From Streptomyces tricolor (GTDB taxonomy: Bacteria > Actinomycetota > Actinomycetes > Streptomycetales > Streptomycetaceae), in NCBI RefSeq assembly GCF_002155905.1, contig NZ_MUMF01000291.1:1-64000 (forward strand): a stretch of DNA of 64,000 nucleotides. The letters run 5' to 3'. Of this stretch, positions 9,808 through 41,736 are shown one piece after another. The notes below the pieces were generated by a model. That model saw only the letters and a list, made by a program, of their open reading frames with translations, searched no databases and was not told where the DNA came from. Each line of letters begins with the position of its first letter. Within the stretch, counting starts at the first letter, position 1. Position numbers and translations under genes: made by a program.

Positions 9808-10632
9808 GTGATCCCTAGCGTCGCACCCGTGCAGACCTCCTTCCTCACCCTCCTGTGCTTCGGCTGCCTGACCGGCGTCACCACCGTGCTCTTCGGCTTC
9901 GGCGGCGGCTTCGTCACGGTCCCCGTCGTCCACGGCGTCCTGACCGCCACGGCACGTCCTGGAGACGCCATGCACGTCGCGGTGGCCACCTCGGCCGCGG
10001 TCATGCTCGTGAACGCCGCGACGGCGGCACTCGCGCAAGGGCGGCAGGGCCGGCTGCGCCGCGCGTACGTCTGGCCGCTGGCGGCGTACATCGCGATCGG
10101 CGCCGCCGCCGGGTCCCTCGCCGCCACCGCGCTCGGCGACACGGCGCTGCGTCTGCTGTTCGCCGCCTACCTGCTGGTGACGATCACCGACAGTCTCCTG
10201 CGCGAGGGCTTCCTCTCCGTGGCGCACCGGCCGCGTCCCGAGCCGCTGGGCCGGGCCACCACCACCCTCGGCGGCATGGGCATCGGCCTGGTGGCCGCGG
10301 CCCTGGGCGTGGGCGGCAGCGTCATGACGGTCCCCCTCCTGCGTCGCAGGGGCCTTCCCATGGCCGAGGCGACCGCCCTGGCGAACCCCCTCAGCGTCCC
10401 CGTCGCCGTGGCCGGCACCCTCGTCTACGCCGTAGCCCCCACCACGGCCGCAGGCCCGGGACAGCTCGGCTACGTCGATCTCACCGCCGGCGCCGCCCTG
10501 CTCCTCGGCTCGCTGCCCGCCATCGCCGTGGCCAGGCGGATCACCGGCCGCGTCCCCGACCGCGTCCACTCCGTCGCCTACGTCCTGCTGCTCCTGCTGG
10601 TCCTGATCGTGACGGTGTCCCTGGGCGTCTGA
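9808..10632 (+). CDS. TauE/SafE-type membrane exporter
   Basis: 274 residues and about eight membrane helices, arranged as the two repeats of the TSUP family: FGFGGGFVTVPVV near the start and LGVGGSVMTVPLL in the second half. Members export sulfite, sulfoacetate or related organosulfur acids. The GTG at 9808 has AGGAG two bases upstream, which is tight; GTG 9829 is an alternative giving 267 residues. Its divergent AraC neighbour probably regulates it. A second TauE-type protein at 54637 belongs to a sulfide module, while this one has no sulfur genes around it. Confidence 0.85.
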   Translation: MIPSVAPVQTSFLTLLCFGCLTGVTTVLFGFGGGFVTVPVVHGVLTATARPGDAMHVAVATSAAVMLVNAATAALAQGRQGRLRRAYVWPLAAYIAIGAAAGSLAATALGDTALRLLFAAYLLVTITDSLLREGFLSVAHRPRPEPLGRATTTLGGMGIGLVAAALGVGGSVMTVPLLRRRGLPMAEATALANPLSVPVAVAGTLVYAVAPTTAAGPGQLGYVDLTAGAALLLGSLPAIAVARRITGRVPDRVHSVAYVLLLLLVLIVTVSLGV

Positions 10633-35392: not shown

Positions 35393-36061
35393 TCAGATGG
35401 TCATCGGCTCCTGGAGCCAGCGGCTGATCCGGTACGGCAGCCACCAGGCGAGCGGGCCGGCCTCCAGCACGAGCTTCTCGCCGCGGAAGTCGTCGAGCAC
35501 GGCGGCCGGCACCGAGTCCGCCGGCGCTCCGTAGGCCAGACGCTCGATCGCCCGCTCGTAGTGCGGCTCGTCGGCGGTGAAGCGGCGCAGTTCCCCCCAG
35601 CGGCGGTCCCGTATCTGCACGAAGCCCGGGCCCTTGCGCCACAGGCACTTGCACAGATAGTGGCCCTGCCGCCAGGCGCGCAGTGCCTCGGCGGCCTCGG
35701 CGGGCCCCTCGATACGCCGGGGCGGCTGCAGGTGGCTGAGGACCTGCCAGGTGCCGTCCGGCGTCGGGGGCAGCCGCAGGTCCCACTCGACCAGGACGGC
35801 CCGCGCGGTCAGGTCCCGCACCAGGCTCAGCGCGCCCACCGCCGCGGCGGCCCGCTCGTCGTCCCCTCCCGAAGCGAGGTCCACGGTCGCGGGCAGCCGC
35901 ACGCGCCGGGCGCCCAGCCGCCAGAGCCGCTCGCTCTCCCCCTCCAGCGGACCGGGAAGGGCGAGTTCGCCCAGGAACATGCCGGGGAGTGCGCAGGCGG
36001 CGGGGTCGTAGTCGCGCCAGGCGAGGACGGCGGGCGGACTCGTGGTGCTCGACGTGCTCAT
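35393..36061 (-). CDS. DUF5825-like RiPP cluster protein
   Basis: 222 residues, soluble, with no signal peptide, membrane helix or cofactor motif. From memory it matches DUF5825, a family found next to B12 radical SAM RiPP maturases; its role is unknown and could be substrate recognition or presentation. ATG 36061 has GAGGAGGAG about seven bases upstream, and the gene starts 25 bp after the radical SAM stop, so it is the last gene of the operon. The strong ribosome-binding site suggests it is made in amounts similar to the maturase. Confidence 0.7.
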   Translation of the reverse strand: MSTSSTTSPPAVLAWRDYDPAACALPGMFLGELALPGPLEGESERLWRLGARRVRLPATVDLASGGDDERAAAAVGALSLVRDLTARAVLVEWDLRLPPTPDGTWQVLSHLQPPRRIEGPAEAAEALRAWRQGHYLCKCLWRKGPGFVQIRDRRWGELRRFTADEPHYERAIERLAYGAPADSVPAAVLDDFRGEKLVLEAGPLAWWLPYRISRWLQEPMTI

Positions 36062-36086
36062 GGGCGTACTCCTCCTCGGGGCGCGG

Positions 36087-37991
36087 TCACGCGTGGACGG
36101 GCTCGGCCCGCGTCGCGTAGGTGTGGCGCATGAAGTCCAGCCGCAGCAGATCCTCGTTGACGGCGGCCGGGGCGATGTGCACGTACTGCCCGCCGTCGGT
36201 GAAGACGATCCCGAGGCGGAGCCAGTGGTCGAGGAGGCGCTGCGCACCCGCCTCGTCCCGGGCCGCTCCGGGCGCGCCGCGCGCGGCCTTGCGGGTGAGG
36301 GCGGCGACGGTGTGCGGCTGGTCGAGGAGGCGGAACGCGGCCAGCTCGAAGGGGTCGGCCAGCTCGGTCGTCCGCCAGTCGAAGGCGCGGCGCCGGGAGA
36401 CCAGGACGATCCGGTCGCCCAGGTCGGCGTGGGTCAGGCGGGCGTCGGCGTGGTGCTTCTTCCACGCGGCCAGGGCGTCGTTCAGCGCGGTGACGGTCGG
36501 TTCGCCGATGCCCCGCTCCGGTGCCTCGAAGACGTACGCGAGGTCGTACAGCTCCTCCTCGGGCAGGTCGTAGGTGAAGCGGTAGTGCTCCTCGGGCCGC
36601 AGGCCCGTGAAGCCGAGTTCGGGCCGCTCGAAGTAGGGGCTGAAGCGTTCGATGGCGATCCGGGCCGACAGGTCGACCGGCGGGTCGAGATGTTCCAGCG
36701 CCGGTATCTGGGCGATCACCGGCTCGTAGTCCCGGTCGGTCTCCCCGGGGAAGCCGTGCAGGTAGTTCCAGGCGACCGACAGACCGGTCTCGGCGCCGTC
36801 ACGGAGCATCCGGACGTTCTGGCAGCCGCTGACGCCCTTGTCCATCAGGTCCAGGACCCGGTGGTTGAGCGACTCGATGCCGGGCTGGACGTAGATCATC
36901 CCCGCGTCGGCGAGGGTACGGAGCTGGGGGCGGCGCATGTTGGCCTTGATCTCGATGTGCAGCCGCAGGTCGTACCCGCTGTCGATGATCCTGGGCAGCA
37001 CGGTCGTCAGGTAGCCCATGTCGAGGATGTTGTCCACGACGTACATGTCCAGGACCCGGTGGCGGCGGGCCAGTTCGACGATCTCCTCGTAGAAGGTGTC
37101 CGGGCTCTTGGAACGGAACTGCATGAACGATCCGTTGAGCCCGCAGAAGGTGCAGTGGTGCTTCTCCCCCCACCAGCAGCCGCGGGCGCCCTCGACGACC
37201 AGCTTGGGTTCGACCCAGTGACGGGCGGCGGAGGCGGCGAGGCGCTCGAAGTAGCCGCTGTAGTCGGGCGGCAGGATCGCGGCGGGCGGCAGCGGACGGG
37301 TGGCCATCGGGTTGGCACGGCTCGCGCCGCCGGCTGCCCGGTGGCACAGTCCGGGCACCCCGGCGAGGTCCGAGCCGTCGGCGAGCGCGGTGAGCAGCTG
37401 CGGGAAGGCCGCCTCCCCCTCGCCGCGTACGACGTGGTCGACGAACGGGAAGTTGCGGTGGACGGCGGCGCCCTGCGCGCCGTCGCAGTTGGCCCCGCCC
37501 AGCACGGTGACGATGTGCGGGGCGAGCTGCTTGACCCGCCGGGCGGCGGCCAGCGCCGCGGTGTTCTGCTGGAAGGTGGAGGTGAACCCGACGACATCGG
37601 GTGCCTGCGCGACGATCCGCCGCGCGATCTCGTCCACGAACTCCGGCACCACCCGGTGCAGTGCCCGGGTCATGGCCATCCGCGACTTCTTCAGCTTCCC
37701 GCGCATCACCGCGGTGAACTCCTCCTCGCGCCAGTGCGGATCGTCGTACAGGGCGGAGGAGAACACCCAGTCGCCGCAGCCCATGAAGTAGGACGACAGG
37801 GCGTAGTACTCGTAGTCGTCGCCGGTGAACGGGGTGCGCGCGGTGATCCAGTCGGTGAATTCGAGGTTGGCGTGCAGGACCTCGGCCTCGGCGCCGGGCA
37901 CGCGCTCGTCCACGCTGCGTTTGAGGATCCCCAGCGCGAGGGACGGGAGGTCGATGGGCGACCAGGGCATGTTGACCAGCAGGACACGCAT
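36087..37991 (-). CDS. B12-dependent-type radical SAM RiPP maturase
   Basis: 634 residues matching the ribosomal-peptide maturation radical SAM protein 1 family (TIGR03975 type, often called RiPP C-methyltransferase). An N-terminal Rossmann cobalamin-binding region (about 1-215; MRVLLVNMPWSPIDLPSLAL, VGFTSTFQQ, VLGGANCDG) precedes a radical SAM barrel (about 262-480) whose cluster cysteines are C272, C280 and C283, the CX7CX2C spacing of this family. GVEPG-like YVQPGIESLN lies in the barrel. The C-terminal domain (about 500-634) has a winged-helix-like region seen in peptide-binding maturases. It should install methyl groups on unactivated carbons of the precursor. GAGGAG is five bases before ATG 37991; a strong hairpin separates it from the precursor gene. 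Confidence 0.88.
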   Translation of the reverse strand: MRVLLVNMPWSPIDLPSLALGILKRSVDERVPGAEAEVLHANLEFTDWITARTPFTGDDYEYYALSSYFMGCGDWVFSSALYDDPHWREEEFTAVMRGKLKKSRMAMTRALHRVVPEFVDEIARRIVAQAPDVVGFTSTFQQNTAALAAARRVKQLAPHIVTVLGGANCDGAQGAAVHRNFPFVDHVVRGEGEAAFPQLLTALADGSDLAGVPGLCHRAAGGASRANPMATRPLPPAAILPPDYSGYFERLAASAARHWVEPKLVVEGARGCWWGEKHHCTFCGLNGSFMQFRSKSPDTFYEEIVELARRHRVLDMYVVDNILDMGYLTTVLPRIIDSGYDLRLHIEIKANMRRPQLRTLADAGMIYVQPGIESLNHRVLDLMDKGVSGCQNVRMLRDGAETGLSVAWNYLHGFPGETDRDYEPVIAQIPALEHLDPPVDLSARIAIERFSPYFERPELGFTGLRPEEHYRFTYDLPEEELYDLAYVFEAPERGIGEPTVTALNDALAAWKKHHADARLTHADLGDRIVLVSRRRAFDWRTTELADPFELAAFRLLDQPHTVAALTRKAARGAPGAARDEAGAQRLLDHWLRLGIVFTDGGQYVHIAPAAVNEDLLRLDFMRHTYATRAEPVHA

Positions 37992-38014
37992 GTCGGCTCC
38001 TCGGGGAGGGGGGA

Positions 38015-38050
38015 CCGGCCGGCCCGGCGGCGCACCGCCGGGCCGGCCGG
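38015..38050 (-). terminator. 16-bp hairpin between precursor and maturase genes
   Basis: Perfect stem CCGGCCGGCCCGGCGG (38015-38030) and CCGCCGGGCCGGCCGG (38035-38050) with loop CGCA. It starts 6 nt after the precursor stop and ends 23 nt before the radical SAM start. It probably works as a partial terminator or mRNA stabiliser that raises precursor over enzyme levels, as known for other RiPP operons. Confidence 0.8.
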
Positions 38051-38056
38051 CGGGGG

Positions 38057-38176
38057 TCAGTCCTCTTCCGCGTCCTCGGCGTTGCGGAACGGGACGGTGA
38101 CGGTGATGCCGACGCTCGGCTTGCGGTTCTCCTCGTCACCCGCGAGCGGGTCGTTGTGGATGATGTCCTTCTGCAC
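38057..38176 (-). CDS. Candidate RiPP precursor peptide, 39 residues
   Basis: A GTG-started ORF of 39 codons with GAGGAG eight bases upstream, placed between the S9 peptidase and radical SAM genes. The N-terminal half is charged (QKDIIHNDPLAGDEENRK) like a leader, the middle is a beta-branched stretch SVGITVTVPF, and the tail is acidic (RNAEDAEED). There is no Cys and no Trp, so thioether or lanthionine chemistry is unlikely; V, I and T carbons would suit a C-methyltransferase. Pro residues are at 10, 20 and 29; cleavage after P20 and P29 would release SVGITVTVP. Its first 41 bp overlap the end of the peptidase gene in another frame. Coding is well supported by position, RBS and third-base bias; the precursor role is inferred. 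Confidence 0.75.
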   Translation of the reverse strand: MQKDIIHNDPLAGDEENRKPSVGITVTVPFRNAEDAEED

Positions 38177-39980
38177 GGGACCTTCTCCTCTCCGTGAGGT
38201 GTTCGGCGGTGTGGTGCTCCCCGCTCCGGGCGGAGCGGGGCGTCTGGGGCCGGTGGTGCGCCGGGCCGCGCAGTTCCCGGTCGAGGAAGACCACGCCCCG
38301 GCGCAGCACGGTGACGTGGTCGCCGCCGTCGTAGCCGTCGTGGCCGGAGTCCAGCCACAGCGCCGCGTGCCGCACCCCGGCGGCGCGCAGCGCGGCGAGG
38401 TAGGCGCGGATCTGACCGGGCGGGCACTTGGCGTCATGGATGGCGGCCGCCACGAGCAGCGGGGCGCGGACCGCGGCGGCGTAGTGGATCGGTGAGCTGC
38501 GCGCATACCGTTCGGGCACCTCGTCGGGGGTGCCGCCGAACAGCCGCTCGTCCAGGGCGCGCAGCGCGGGAGTGGTGGTGCGGTACGCGGCCGCGCAGTC
38601 GGCGACCGGCTTCACCGCGACCCCCGCCTGCCACAGGCCGGGGCGGGTGCCGAGGGCGAGCAGCACGAGGTAGCCGCCCCAGGAGGTGCCCCACAGCCCC
38701 ACGGCGTCCGCGCGGATCAGCCGGCGGGCGACGAGGTCGGCGCGGACGGACGCCAGGTCCGCGACCTGGGTGAGTCCGACACCGTCCCGGAAGGCCCGCC
38801 GCCAGCGCGGCCCGTAGCCGGTGGAGCCGCGGTAGTTGACGCGGACGACCGCGAAACCGGACGCGACGAGGGAGTGGACGACGCCGTCGTAGGCGTCCCG
38901 GTCGTGGTCGGCGGGCCCGCCGTGCACCAGGAACACCGCCGGGACCGGACCGCGCGGCGCGTCGGGCAGGCTGAGCAGGCTGTGCACGGGGCCGTCCGGG
39001 CCGGGCGTCCACACGTCCCGGTGGGTACCGGGGAACGGCTGGGGCAAGGCGGGCAGTTCGGGCAGGGCGGTGCCCCGGGTGGAGCACAGGCGGGGCGGAC
39101 GGCCGGCGGCCGTCCAGAGGTAGTGCAGGTCGCCCCCGGGCCGGGTGGCGGCGTCCAGCACGGTGCCCGGGGGAGTGGGGACGGGGGAGAGGGTGCGCGC
39201 GGTGAGGTCGGCGCGGTGCAGCGTCGAGCGGCCGTGGCGGTCCTGCCGTACCAGGACGGACCGGCCGTCCGGGTCCCAGCGGGCGGTGATCTCCGTGTCG
39301 AAGGCGCACCAGTCGTGCGTGGCGGGGCCGCTGCCGGGCCGCCAGGACGCCAGGACGTAGCCGTCCTCCCGCTCGCGGATCAGCAGGAGTTCCTCGCGGT
39401 CGGGGCCGGGGGCGAAGCCCAGGGACCACAGCCGGCCGGTGTCGCCGCCGGGCAGGACGGCCCGTACGACACCGTCGCAGGTGAGCACGGTGACCGCGTC
39501 GGCGCCGGCGAGCGCCAGCAGCCGGCCCCCGGGGGTGATGCCGGTGAGGGTGACATGGCCCGGGAGGCGGGCCACCGTGCGGGCCCGGCCGCCGCGCGGG
39601 CCCACGTGGACGGTGGTGGCGCGGCCGTCCCCGGCCGCGACGGCGACGGTGCCGTGGTCGCTCACCGCGAGGCCCCGGGGGAGCCCGGGCGGGACGTCGG
39701 TCAGACCGGGCCGGTCGGGACCGCCGGTGAAGGGCTGGAACCGCCAGCAGCCCGCCCCGTGCGCGTCCTCGTCGAACCACCACACGTGCGCGTCCCGGTC
39801 GACGGCGCCGTGCAGGGTGCCCCGGGCGCGCCGGGTGACCTGCCGCGCGCGACCGGCCGCGGCGTCCCAGGCGAACACCTCGCACCGGCCGCCGGCGTCG
39901 GCGGTGAACACCATCCTGGCCGGGTCGGCGGCGCACACCTCCGGCAACGCGGCCCGGTACACCTGGTAGCCGCCGCTCAT
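38136..39980 (-). CDS. S9 prolyl-oligopeptidase-family peptidase
   Basis: 614 residues. An N-terminal beta-propeller (about 1-315, with repeated blade motifs) covers a C-terminal alpha/beta hydrolase (about 325-575). The triad is S433 in GTSWGG, D516 in AIHDAKCP and H547 in SGHDGY; VFLVHGGP and VNYRGSTGYG are typical of S9 dipeptidyl/acylaminoacyl peptidases. No signal peptide is visible, so it acts in the cytoplasm. The start ATG overlaps the exporter stop in ATGA (39977-39980). The last 13 residues, Arg/His-rich, lie over the precursor start and its ribosome-binding site. In this operon it is the obvious candidate for leader removal or peptide trimming after proline. Confidence 0.9.
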   Translation of the reverse strand: MSGGYQVYRAALPEVCAADPARMVFTADAGGRCEVFAWDAAAGRARQVTRRARGTLHGAVDRDAHVWWFDEDAHGAGCWRFQPFTGGPDRPGLTDVPPGLPRGLAVSDHGTVAVAAGDGRATTVHVGPRGGRARTVARLPGHVTLTGITPGGRLLALAGADAVTVLTCDGVVRAVLPGGDTGRLWSLGFAPGPDREELLLIREREDGYVLASWRPGSGPATHDWCAFDTEITARWDPDGRSVLVRQDRHGRSTLHRADLTARTLSPVPTPPGTVLDAATRPGGDLHYLWTAAGRPPRLCSTRGTALPELPALPQPFPGTHRDVWTPGPDGPVHSLLSLPDAPRGPVPAVFLVHGGPADHDRDAYDGVVHSLVASGFAVVRVNYRGSTGYGPRWRRAFRDGVGLTQVADLASVRADLVARRLIRADAVGLWGTSWGGYLVLLALGTRPGLWQAGVAVKPVADCAAAYRTTTPALRALDERLFGGTPDEVPERYARSSPIHYAAAVRAPLLVAAAIHDAKCPPGQIRAYLAALRAAGVRHAALWLDSGHDGYDGGDHVTVLRRGVVFLDRELRGPAHHRPQTPRSARSGEHHTAEHLTERRRSRAEGHHPQRPARG

Positions 39981-41239
39981 CCGGTGACCTCCGCCGCTCG
40001 TCCCGCGGCCTCCGGTGCGAGCACGCCGCGCACCGGGCGCCGGGAGCTGTGCGCCGCCAGCAGGGCCAGCAGCACACCGCAGACGGCCGCGGGCGCCGCG
40101 GCGGACACCCGGTCGGCGAGGCCGCCGGCGAGGACCGGGGCCAGCGCGGCGGCACCCGTGGTCGCGGTGGCCAGCACCGCGCCGGTACGGGCCTGCAGCG
40201 CGGGCGCCGTGACCTGGACGGCCCGGGCCTGGAGCACGACGGAGGCGAGCGGCATCAGCAGGCACACCAGGCCGAACAGCAGCCCGTACGCCCACGCGCT
40301 CGTGACCACGGCGAGCGCGGCGGCGAGCGGGACGAGCAGCCAGGTCACGCCGGGGACGACCCGTGGCGCGCCGAACCGCCCCGCCACGCGCGGCGCGGCG
40401 AGCGCGCCCACCAGACCGGCGGCACCCGACAGGGCGAGGACCGCGCCCAGCACGGCGCCCGCGTGGCCGTCCCGCCGGAGGGTGAAGACGGCGCCGTAGT
40501 ACAGCGCCACCACCACGGCGTTGACGGTGGCGCCCCACACCAGGACCAGCCGCAGCAGCGGAGCGGAACGCACCAGCCGCAGCCCGGCCGCGCCCTCCCG
40601 CAGCAGCCCCGCCCCGCGCTGCCGCGGCGACGCCGCCCTGAGGTCGGCACGCATGGCCGCAACGCACAGGGCGCTGACCAGGTAGGAGAGGGCGTCGGCG
40701 AGGAACGGCAGCGCGCGGGCGGCCTGGTAGAGGAGCCCGCCCAGCGCCGGGCCGGTGATCAGCGCGCCCTGGTCGGCGGCGGCGAGCCGGGCGATCGCCC
40801 GGGGCTGCTCGGGGCCCGGGCTGACCAGCGCGACCGTCCCGCGCGCCGCCGCCTCGAAGCAGGCGGTCGCCAGCCGCTCGACCAGTACGGCGGTGAGGAT
40901 CAGGCCCAGCGGCGGGTGCCCGGCGGCCAGCGCGAGGGCCACGCAGCCCATCGCGAGCGCCGAGACGGCCGCGGACCCGGTCATCACGCGTTTGCGGGCA
41001 CCCCGGTCGGCGGGAAGGGCGACGAGCGGGCCGAGGAGCAGCCCGAGGGCGGTGGAGGCACCGGCGATCAGACCGACGGTCTGGGGCGAGTTGCCCAGCC
41101 CCAGGAGGAGCAGCGGGAGCACGGTCCCCGAGGCCTGGCTGCCGACCCCGTCGGCGGCGTTGGCCCACCACAGGAGCCGGAAGTCACGTGGTTCCGCCCG
41201 CTGGTGGGACGGTCGTGCGGTCGACGCTGGCCGTTCCAC
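39977..41239 (-). CDS. MFS exporter of the RiPP cluster
   Basis: 420 residues with twelve predicted membrane helices. FRLLWWANAADGVGSQASGT opens the protein, and ALPADRGARKRVM is the MFS loop 2-3 motif A, as in the macrolide-efflux (MefA/enterobactin exporter) branch. GTG 41239 follows GAGG by five bases; a longer frame upstream lacks signals. It is the first gene of the operon and overlaps the peptidase start by 4 bp. Probable role: export of the finished peptide or self-protection. Confidence 0.85.
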   Translation of the reverse strand: MERPASTARPSHQRAEPRDFRLLWWANAADGVGSQASGTVLPLLLLGLGNSPQTVGLIAGASTALGLLLGPLVALPADRGARKRVMTGSAAVSALAMGCVALALAAGHPPLGLILTAVLVERLATACFEAAARGTVALVSPGPEQPRAIARLAAADQGALITGPALGGLLYQAARALPFLADALSYLVSALCVAAMRADLRAASPRQRGAGLLREGAAGLRLVRSAPLLRLVLVWGATVNAVVVALYYGAVFTLRRDGHAGAVLGAVLALSGAAGLVGALAAPRVAGRFGAPRVVPGVTWLLVPLAAALAVVTSAWAYGLLFGLVCLLMPLASVVLQARAVQVTAPALQARTGAVLATATTGAAALAPVLAGGLADRVSAAAPAAVCGVLLALLAAHSSRRPVRGVLAPEAAGRAAEVTG

Positions 41240-41299: not shown

Positions 41300-41329
41300 A
41301 GCGTAATCGAGCGCGAACAAGCGTCACAA
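41300..41329 (-). promoter_or_regulatory. Candidate promoter of the RiPP operon
   Basis: TTGTGA (41329-41324) and TACGCT (41305-41300) are 18 bp apart on the minus strand. The predicted start is near 41293. The direct repeats lie downstream of it, which does not fit activation of this promoter; a weaker -10 nearer the gene could be the activated one. Confidence 0.4.
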
Positions 41330-41736
41330 GAGCCCGAGGAGGCTGGCCGGATCCGTGTGGTGCGGCGGTGCGACGGGGCCGGTCCGCCGTACGCGCGAAG
41401 AGGGACTGATCCTTCCGCACCAACACGGCGGGACGCCGCCTTTCCGCCAGGGAAAACCCGCGACGGCGCCCATGCCCCTGCCCGGGTGGGCCGGACGGGC
41501 GGGCCGGAACGGGAGGCCGGCCGTCCGGGGCACGGCGGCACCGGCGGCGCGCCGCTTTCGGCCGAGAACGTGCGCCGCACCCACCCGCCGCGGGGCGCCC
41601 CGCCGTACGAGCACCCGGTCCACGCGAGGGGCGGGCCAGGGCGGCCGCCTGGATCATGCGGGCCGGCAGCGCGCGCCGCACGGTTCCCCGCGGCGGCGCG
41701 CACCTTCCGCCCGGGCCGTCGCGTCCGCGGACGGAC

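Follow-up and report, generated by a model that had tools for sequence, protein, structure and literature searches.

What does the small operon at positions 35393–41239 of a Streptomyces tricolor contig produce, and is the 39-residue peptide encoded in its middle a genuine precursor? The stretch analysed here (the window) comprises 64,000 nucleotides, positions 1 to 64,000 of contig NZ_MUMF01000291.1. The operon contains five genes, and these, like its other parts described below, lie on the minus strand; in the order of transcription they encode a major facilitator superfamily (MFS) transporter, an S9 peptidase, the 39-residue peptide, a TIGR03975-type B12-dependent radical S-adenosylmethionine (SAM) enzyme, and a DUF5825 protein. 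It is very probably an operon for a C-methylated ribosomally synthesized and post-translationally modified peptide (RiPP) of the clavusporin type. This reading is based on protein families and motifs, on the operon of Streptomyces clavuligerus, on passages of PMC12257519 and PMC12951456, on linkage of the precursor gene to its four neighbours (66 of 70 loci), and on conservation of the core Val/Ile residues and of Pro20.

Operon organization and similarity to clavusporin genes

The five-gene minus-strand operon had been outlined in an original prediction made from the DNA letters, and all its genes were recovered at the expected positions with matching families. The MFS transporter (39977–41239), a probable peptide exporter, matched PF07690 with 84 bits and TIGR00900 with 94.6 bits, the latter score being below the cut-off of the model. 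The S9 prolyl-oligopeptidase-type peptidase (38136–39980; PF00326, 120 bits) is probably an MpcP-like leader peptidase; its Ser433, Asp516, and His547 were each conserved in all but one of the 70 sequences aligned. The precursor peptide gene (38057–38176) starts with GTG and was recognized from its sequence and the conservation of its homologues. The B12-dependent radical SAM C-methyltransferase (36087–37991) matched TIGR03975 with 615 bits (cut-off 282) as well as PF04055 and PF02310. Its CX7CX2C cluster motif, CWWGEKHHCTFC (residues 272–283; 37143–37178), did not vary among the 69 sequences aligned (that of the window included), and the closest solved sequence was that of TokK (7kdx, E 7e-15). 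The last gene (35393–36061; PF19142, 258 bits) encodes the DUF5825 protein with which the radical SAM enzyme is paired. The MFS and peptidase genes overlap by 4 nt and the peptidase and peptide genes by 41 nt; gaps of 65 nt and 25 nt separate the peptide gene from the radical SAM gene and the latter from the DUF5825 gene, respectively.

Plasmid pSCL4 of S. clavuligerus carries the same five genes in the same order, with identities of 90% for the radical SAM enzyme, 76% for DUF5825, 78% for the peptidase, and 71% for the MFS protein. Its precursor, MQKDVIHNDPLAGDEENRKPSVGITITVPFRNAEDADED, shares 36 of 39 residues with that of the window, MQKDIIHNDPLAGDEENRKPSVGITVTVPFRNAEDAEED (GTG read as Met). 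The three differences are I5V, V26I, and E37D, with a single change, a Val/Ile exchange, in the core. The operon was observed on large plasmids (L084, L085, and hit H18) of S. clavuligerus (pSCL4), S. nigrescens (SNP1), and Streptomyces sp. NBC_01237. According to passages of PMC12257519, the clavusporins, described in 2025, are C-methylated by a pair of a B12 radical SAM enzyme and a DUF5825 protein, and passages of PMC12951456 assign removal of the clavusporin leader to the prolyl-oligopeptidase MpcP. Both the enzyme pair and the prolyl-oligopeptidase are common to the clavusporin (mpc) system and the window operon. The statement of the original prediction that no product was known for this gene combination does not hold, since clavusporins have been described and S. 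clavuligerus carries an almost identical operon: this kind of system is already known, and the window contains a further example of it.

Reality and conservation of the precursor gene

An open reading frame (ORF) of 39 codons is by itself unremarkable in GC-rich DNA, and conservation was therefore taken as the test. Genome contigs of a named genome collection were scanned with a 24-row precursor alignment, which yielded 70 loci, all titled Streptomyces bar one "Actinobacteria bacterium". An S9 peptidase gene was located 5' of the precursor gene at 70 of 70 loci (at L111 the match covered the C-terminal half only), a radical SAM gene at 69, and MFS and DUF5825 genes at 68 each; the sequences of L128 and L094 stop near the missing gene. 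All four neighbours were found at 66 loci. Conversely, a peptide of the same family was found directly 5' of the radical SAM gene at 33 of 40 DUF5825 loci of Streptomyces genomes. Among the remaining seven, L071 was of another type, L056 had no radical SAM gene on the contig piece, and L064–L067 and L070 yielded no candidate with the ORF filter used. The precursor profile gave three matches in 396 genomes of the phylum, each adjoining a DUF5825 gene.

Codon statistics and invariant residues were calculated for the main class of precursors (at least 39 residues, with Pro29), comprising 58 sequences with 53 distinct DNA sequences. Nucleotide diversity at codon positions 1, 2, and 3 was 0.147, 0.096, and 0.239, peaking at position 3. 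The pN/pS ratio was 0.53 for the precursor; the same method gave 0.54 for the peptidase, 0.56 for DUF5825, and 0.35 for the radical SAM enzyme. Two other strains, S. noursei B-3066 (L093) and Streptomyces sp. NRRL S-118 (L101), have exactly the precursor of the window, so that even its core is not unique.

The short GTG-initiated frame overlapping the peptidase gene is thus supported as a gene by conservation, and the expectation that gene callers would often skip it was borne out by the 16 matching S. clavuligerus plasmid records. None of them listed the peptide: 12 annotated only a hydrolase or S9 peptidase at this place and four nothing, although the gene table describes itself as incomplete. 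The start codon was ATG in S. clavuligerus and at 70 of 70 scan loci, a count biased by the scan pattern, which began with M; GTG was found in six homologues from the 40 DUF5825 loci (L034, L038, L043, L051, L055, and L057). The GTG start of the window peptide is not typical for the family. The sequence GAGAGGAGAAGG stands just 5' of this start, and the ribosome-binding region GAGAGGAGAAGGTCCC (38177–38192) of the peptide gene lies inside the peptidase gene; the ribosome-binding GAGAGGAGAA.. before the peptide gene recurs at L084, L093, and other loci.

Operon limits

When the region was compared with the 70 loci by tblastx, counting collinear matches alone (at 60 bits, on one strand, and with the diagonal within 900 nt), conservation extended between roughly 35.25 and 41.25 kb and was almost absent beyond. 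More sensitive runs at 35 and 45 bits, covering both strands and checked against a shifted control, agreed; small counts just beyond 35393 and 41239 sit at block edges. Plain tblastx coverage was abandoned because, unfiltered, every GC-rich stretch matched nearly all loci. Collinear protein-level conservation is confined to the five genes, and hence no regulator, immunity gene, or extra small ORF is conserved in place. The original prediction was to be given up if the ORF proved unconserved or if another small ORF near the radical SAM gene proved to be the conserved one; the ORF is conserved across the 70 loci, and collinear conservation ends at the operon ends on either strand.

Precursor anatomy and proposed pathway

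The precursor is divided here into a leader of residues 1–20 ending in R-K-P (38117–38176), which is followed by the hydrophobic core SVGITVTVPF (residues 21–30; 38087–38116), the proposed region of C-methylation, and by the acidic tail RNAEDAEED (residues 31–39; 38060–38086) with a net charge of −4; the mean over precursor tails was about −3.9. Residues K3, D4, I6, N8, P10, L11, R18, P29, and R31 were invariant in the 53 distinct main-class genes, and P20 was present in 52 of them and in 55 of 56 distinct complete precursors. One of the 70 precursors (L153), with a masked core, was excluded from core counts. Forty-eight of the 56 distinct precursors belonged to the Pro29 class, in which Val or Ile occupied positions 22, 24, 26, and 28 in 48 of 48, and Thr occupied position 25 in 42 and position 27 in 44. 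Judging from the residue pattern, this alternation of Val/Ile with Thr/Gly suggests an amphipathic strand. The other eight had a second core type, GVGVV(V/I)Y(F/L)RS, without Pro29. The window peptide contains neither Cys nor Trp, and Phe30 is the sole aromatic residue of its core; the lack of Cys and Trp had been noted in the original prediction, together with a beta-branched centre. Divergent loci L061 and L063 (together with L062) had the peptidase and a 30-residue precursor ending in NRP-IIVIIVSS or NRP-IVVIIVSS, without an acidic tail. L068 and L069 had radical SAM and DUF5825 genes, no S9 match, and peptides of 28–32 residues with an NDP or SDP leader, two of them in tandem in L069.

In the proposed pathway, the 39-residue peptide would be bound through its leader by the DUF5825/radical SAM pair, and SAM-derived methyl groups would be moved via methylcobalamin onto unactivated carbons within residues 21–30, the core rich in Val, Ile, and Thr. 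The S9 peptidase would then cut after Pro20, a site that fits a prolyl oligopeptidase, freeing the core from the leader, and the MFS protein would export the product, most likely a surface-active peptide aiding aerial growth, as reported for clavusporins. C-methylation and leader removal are taken from the literature on relatives; exactly which residues are methylated, where the peptidase cuts, in what order the steps run, and what the product does are inferred here. The assignment to a RiPP cluster, the precursor, the type of maturase, the peptidase, and the expected C-methyl (+14 Da) shifts in the beta-branched centre, all put forward in the original prediction, appear well supported.

Two points weigh against this picture. 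Val replaces Pro at the expected cut in L139 (7001–7117) and L052, both of which keep the S9 peptidase; the two precursors read RAV-GVSVKV and RHV-SWSVGV, respectively. In L111 (= L032) and L141, the 7 kb upstream, free of N, contain no match to the MFS gene. To judge from its name, S. clavuligerus is presumably the clavusporin producer; the clavusporins reportedly reduce surface tension and promote aerial growth.

Comparison with other peptide classes

C-methylation of a beta-branched core by B12 radical SAM enzymes is known from proteusins of the polytheonamide type. Proteusins have a long nitrile-hydratase-like or Nif11-like leader, whereas the window precursor has 39 residues in all, and no leader match was found for it in Pfam/NCBIfam up to E = 1. 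Lanthipeptides and sactipeptides have core Cys residues for thioether bonds, in contrast to the window family, in which none of the 56 distinct precursors contained Cys. SapB/AmfS, the surface-active peptides of Streptomyces development, likewise differ in being made by lanthionine chemistry.

Possible function of the DUF5825 protein

The predicted model of DUF5825 had a predicted local distance difference test (pLDDT) value of 89, and its C-terminal half displayed a three-strand plus winged-helix order. This half gave weak matches to ThcOx (5lq4, Z 4.2–4.3), CteB (5why, Z 3.9), and LynD (4v1u, Z 3.7), which appear in a list of 50 rows made up mostly of generic winged helices and lie below any safe Z; we take the matched stretches to be the RiPP recognition element (RRE) domains of these enzymes. 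No PqqD (PF05402) sequence match was detected at the locus, and the DUF5825 sequence had no matches among solved structures up to E = 1. Foldseek returned nothing at E ≤ 0.001 for the whole model and a best E of 0.84 for the C-terminal half. For the N-terminal half, NifB (7jma) was the best VIA row (Z 5.0, root-mean-square deviation 4.7 over 115 residues) and was rejected as too weak for use. The C-terminal half folded alone with low confidence (pLDDT 64.7), and the RRE idea thus rests on the full-length model and the weak matches.

On the predicted model, we hypothesize that the RRE-like C-terminal half of DUF5825 may bind the leader. A fuller scheme, speculative and rather doubtful when taken as a whole, would have this half, as an RRE-type winged helix, grip K3-D4-x-I6-x-N8-x-P10-L11 while the core is held as an extended strand and the radical SAM enzyme methylates Val/Ile at 22, 24, 26, and 28. 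The acidic tail would be kept, so that the product would be an amphiphile of 19 residues whose hydrophobic head is methylated, and the GVGVVVY-F/L-RS cores would give a different surfactant.

Alternative explanations

The chemistry could be as proposed and the product an antibiotic or a signal instead of a morphogenetic surfactant, a possibility that we take seriously but regard as clearly the less probable one. The MFS exporter belongs to a drug-efflux-like family, and the operon is patchily spread: in a survey of 199 Streptomyces genomes, 33 had a DUF5825 match of at least 212 bits (52 of 55 DUF5825 places were inspected, leaving out G185:C94, G077, and G048). Nor does it take the place of SapB. 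The SapB/AmfS precursor model matched 106 of the 199 genomes, and such precursors, cross-counted by hand, occurred in 22 of the 33 DUF5825 genomes vs. 84 of the 166 others; in the absence of mutual exclusion, the idea of the operon as a SapB replacement was rejected. No SapB-type precursor was found in the S. tricolor genome, a single case in a search in which no control genome matched. Speaking for the surfactant are the role reported for clavusporins, to which the title of a cited paper also points, and the absence of any immunity or regulator gene conserved alongside the operon.

It is improbable that the DUF5825/radical SAM pair performs other chemistry, such as cross-linking or epimerization, in place of methylation. 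Methylation is not universal among B12 radical SAM enzymes of RiPP pathways, and passages of PMC12257519 describe one, PbsB, that forms a C–C cross-link. In the biphenomycin-like YHxYxY clusters covered there, a second B12 radical SAM gene adjoins a DUF5825 gene, as in the window. However, these clusters add an MNIO enzyme with its partner and an aromatic precursor motif, none of which is found in the window operon, where Phe30 is the only aromatic residue of the core and both Cys and Trp are absent. The window enzyme matched TIGR03975, the RiPP maturation C-methyltransferase model, at 615 bits and ApyD and other models far lower, and a relative paired with DUF5825 is reported to methylate. 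The possibility that the 39-residue frame arose by chance where the peptidase gene ends, as its 41-nt overlap and GTG start might suggest, is contradicted by its conservation and linkage across loci and can be dismissed.

Upstream region and a second locus

A promoter-like element at 41300–41329, matched by consensus, lies 5' of the operon and consists of TTGTGA (41329–41324), an 18-nt spacer, and TACGCT (41305–41300). Aligning 12 upstream regions showed the pair to be conserved as CTTGT...TA.G.T. Farther upstream, in window positions 41390–41640 and their homologues, GTTCTCGG(C/T)CGAAA and CGGAATGATC repeat in several of the 12 regions and are possible regulator sites.

S. tricolor has a second DUF5825 locus (L072; G000:C656, 8665–12797) with genes for a PNKP-ligase (an RNA-repair protein), a 30-residue peptide, a TIGR03975 radical SAM enzyme (540 bits), and DUF5825, without an S9 peptidase. 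The peptide (10319–10411; ...EIKKVVVREDERSTTRRPAILEKRPTR) ends in EKRPTR just 5' of the radical SAM match. Twelve loci of this type were inspected: seven had PNKP and the peptide, at 73–96% identity, two the peptide without PNKP, and three neither. A literature search for a link between PNKP and radical SAM enzymes in Streptomyces found none, and this locus may be the more novel lead.

Significance

To the known clavusporin system the present analysis adds a precursor survey, the limits of the operon, a promoter-like element, weak RRE-like evidence for DUF5825, and the second locus. Methylation of unactivated peptide carbons by B12 radical SAM enzymes is of interest to peptide engineering, and the 56 distinct natural precursors with their two core types provide clear candidate methylation sites. 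For Streptomyces itself, a 39-residue gene missing from gene tables would encode the substrate of a widespread C-methylation pathway.

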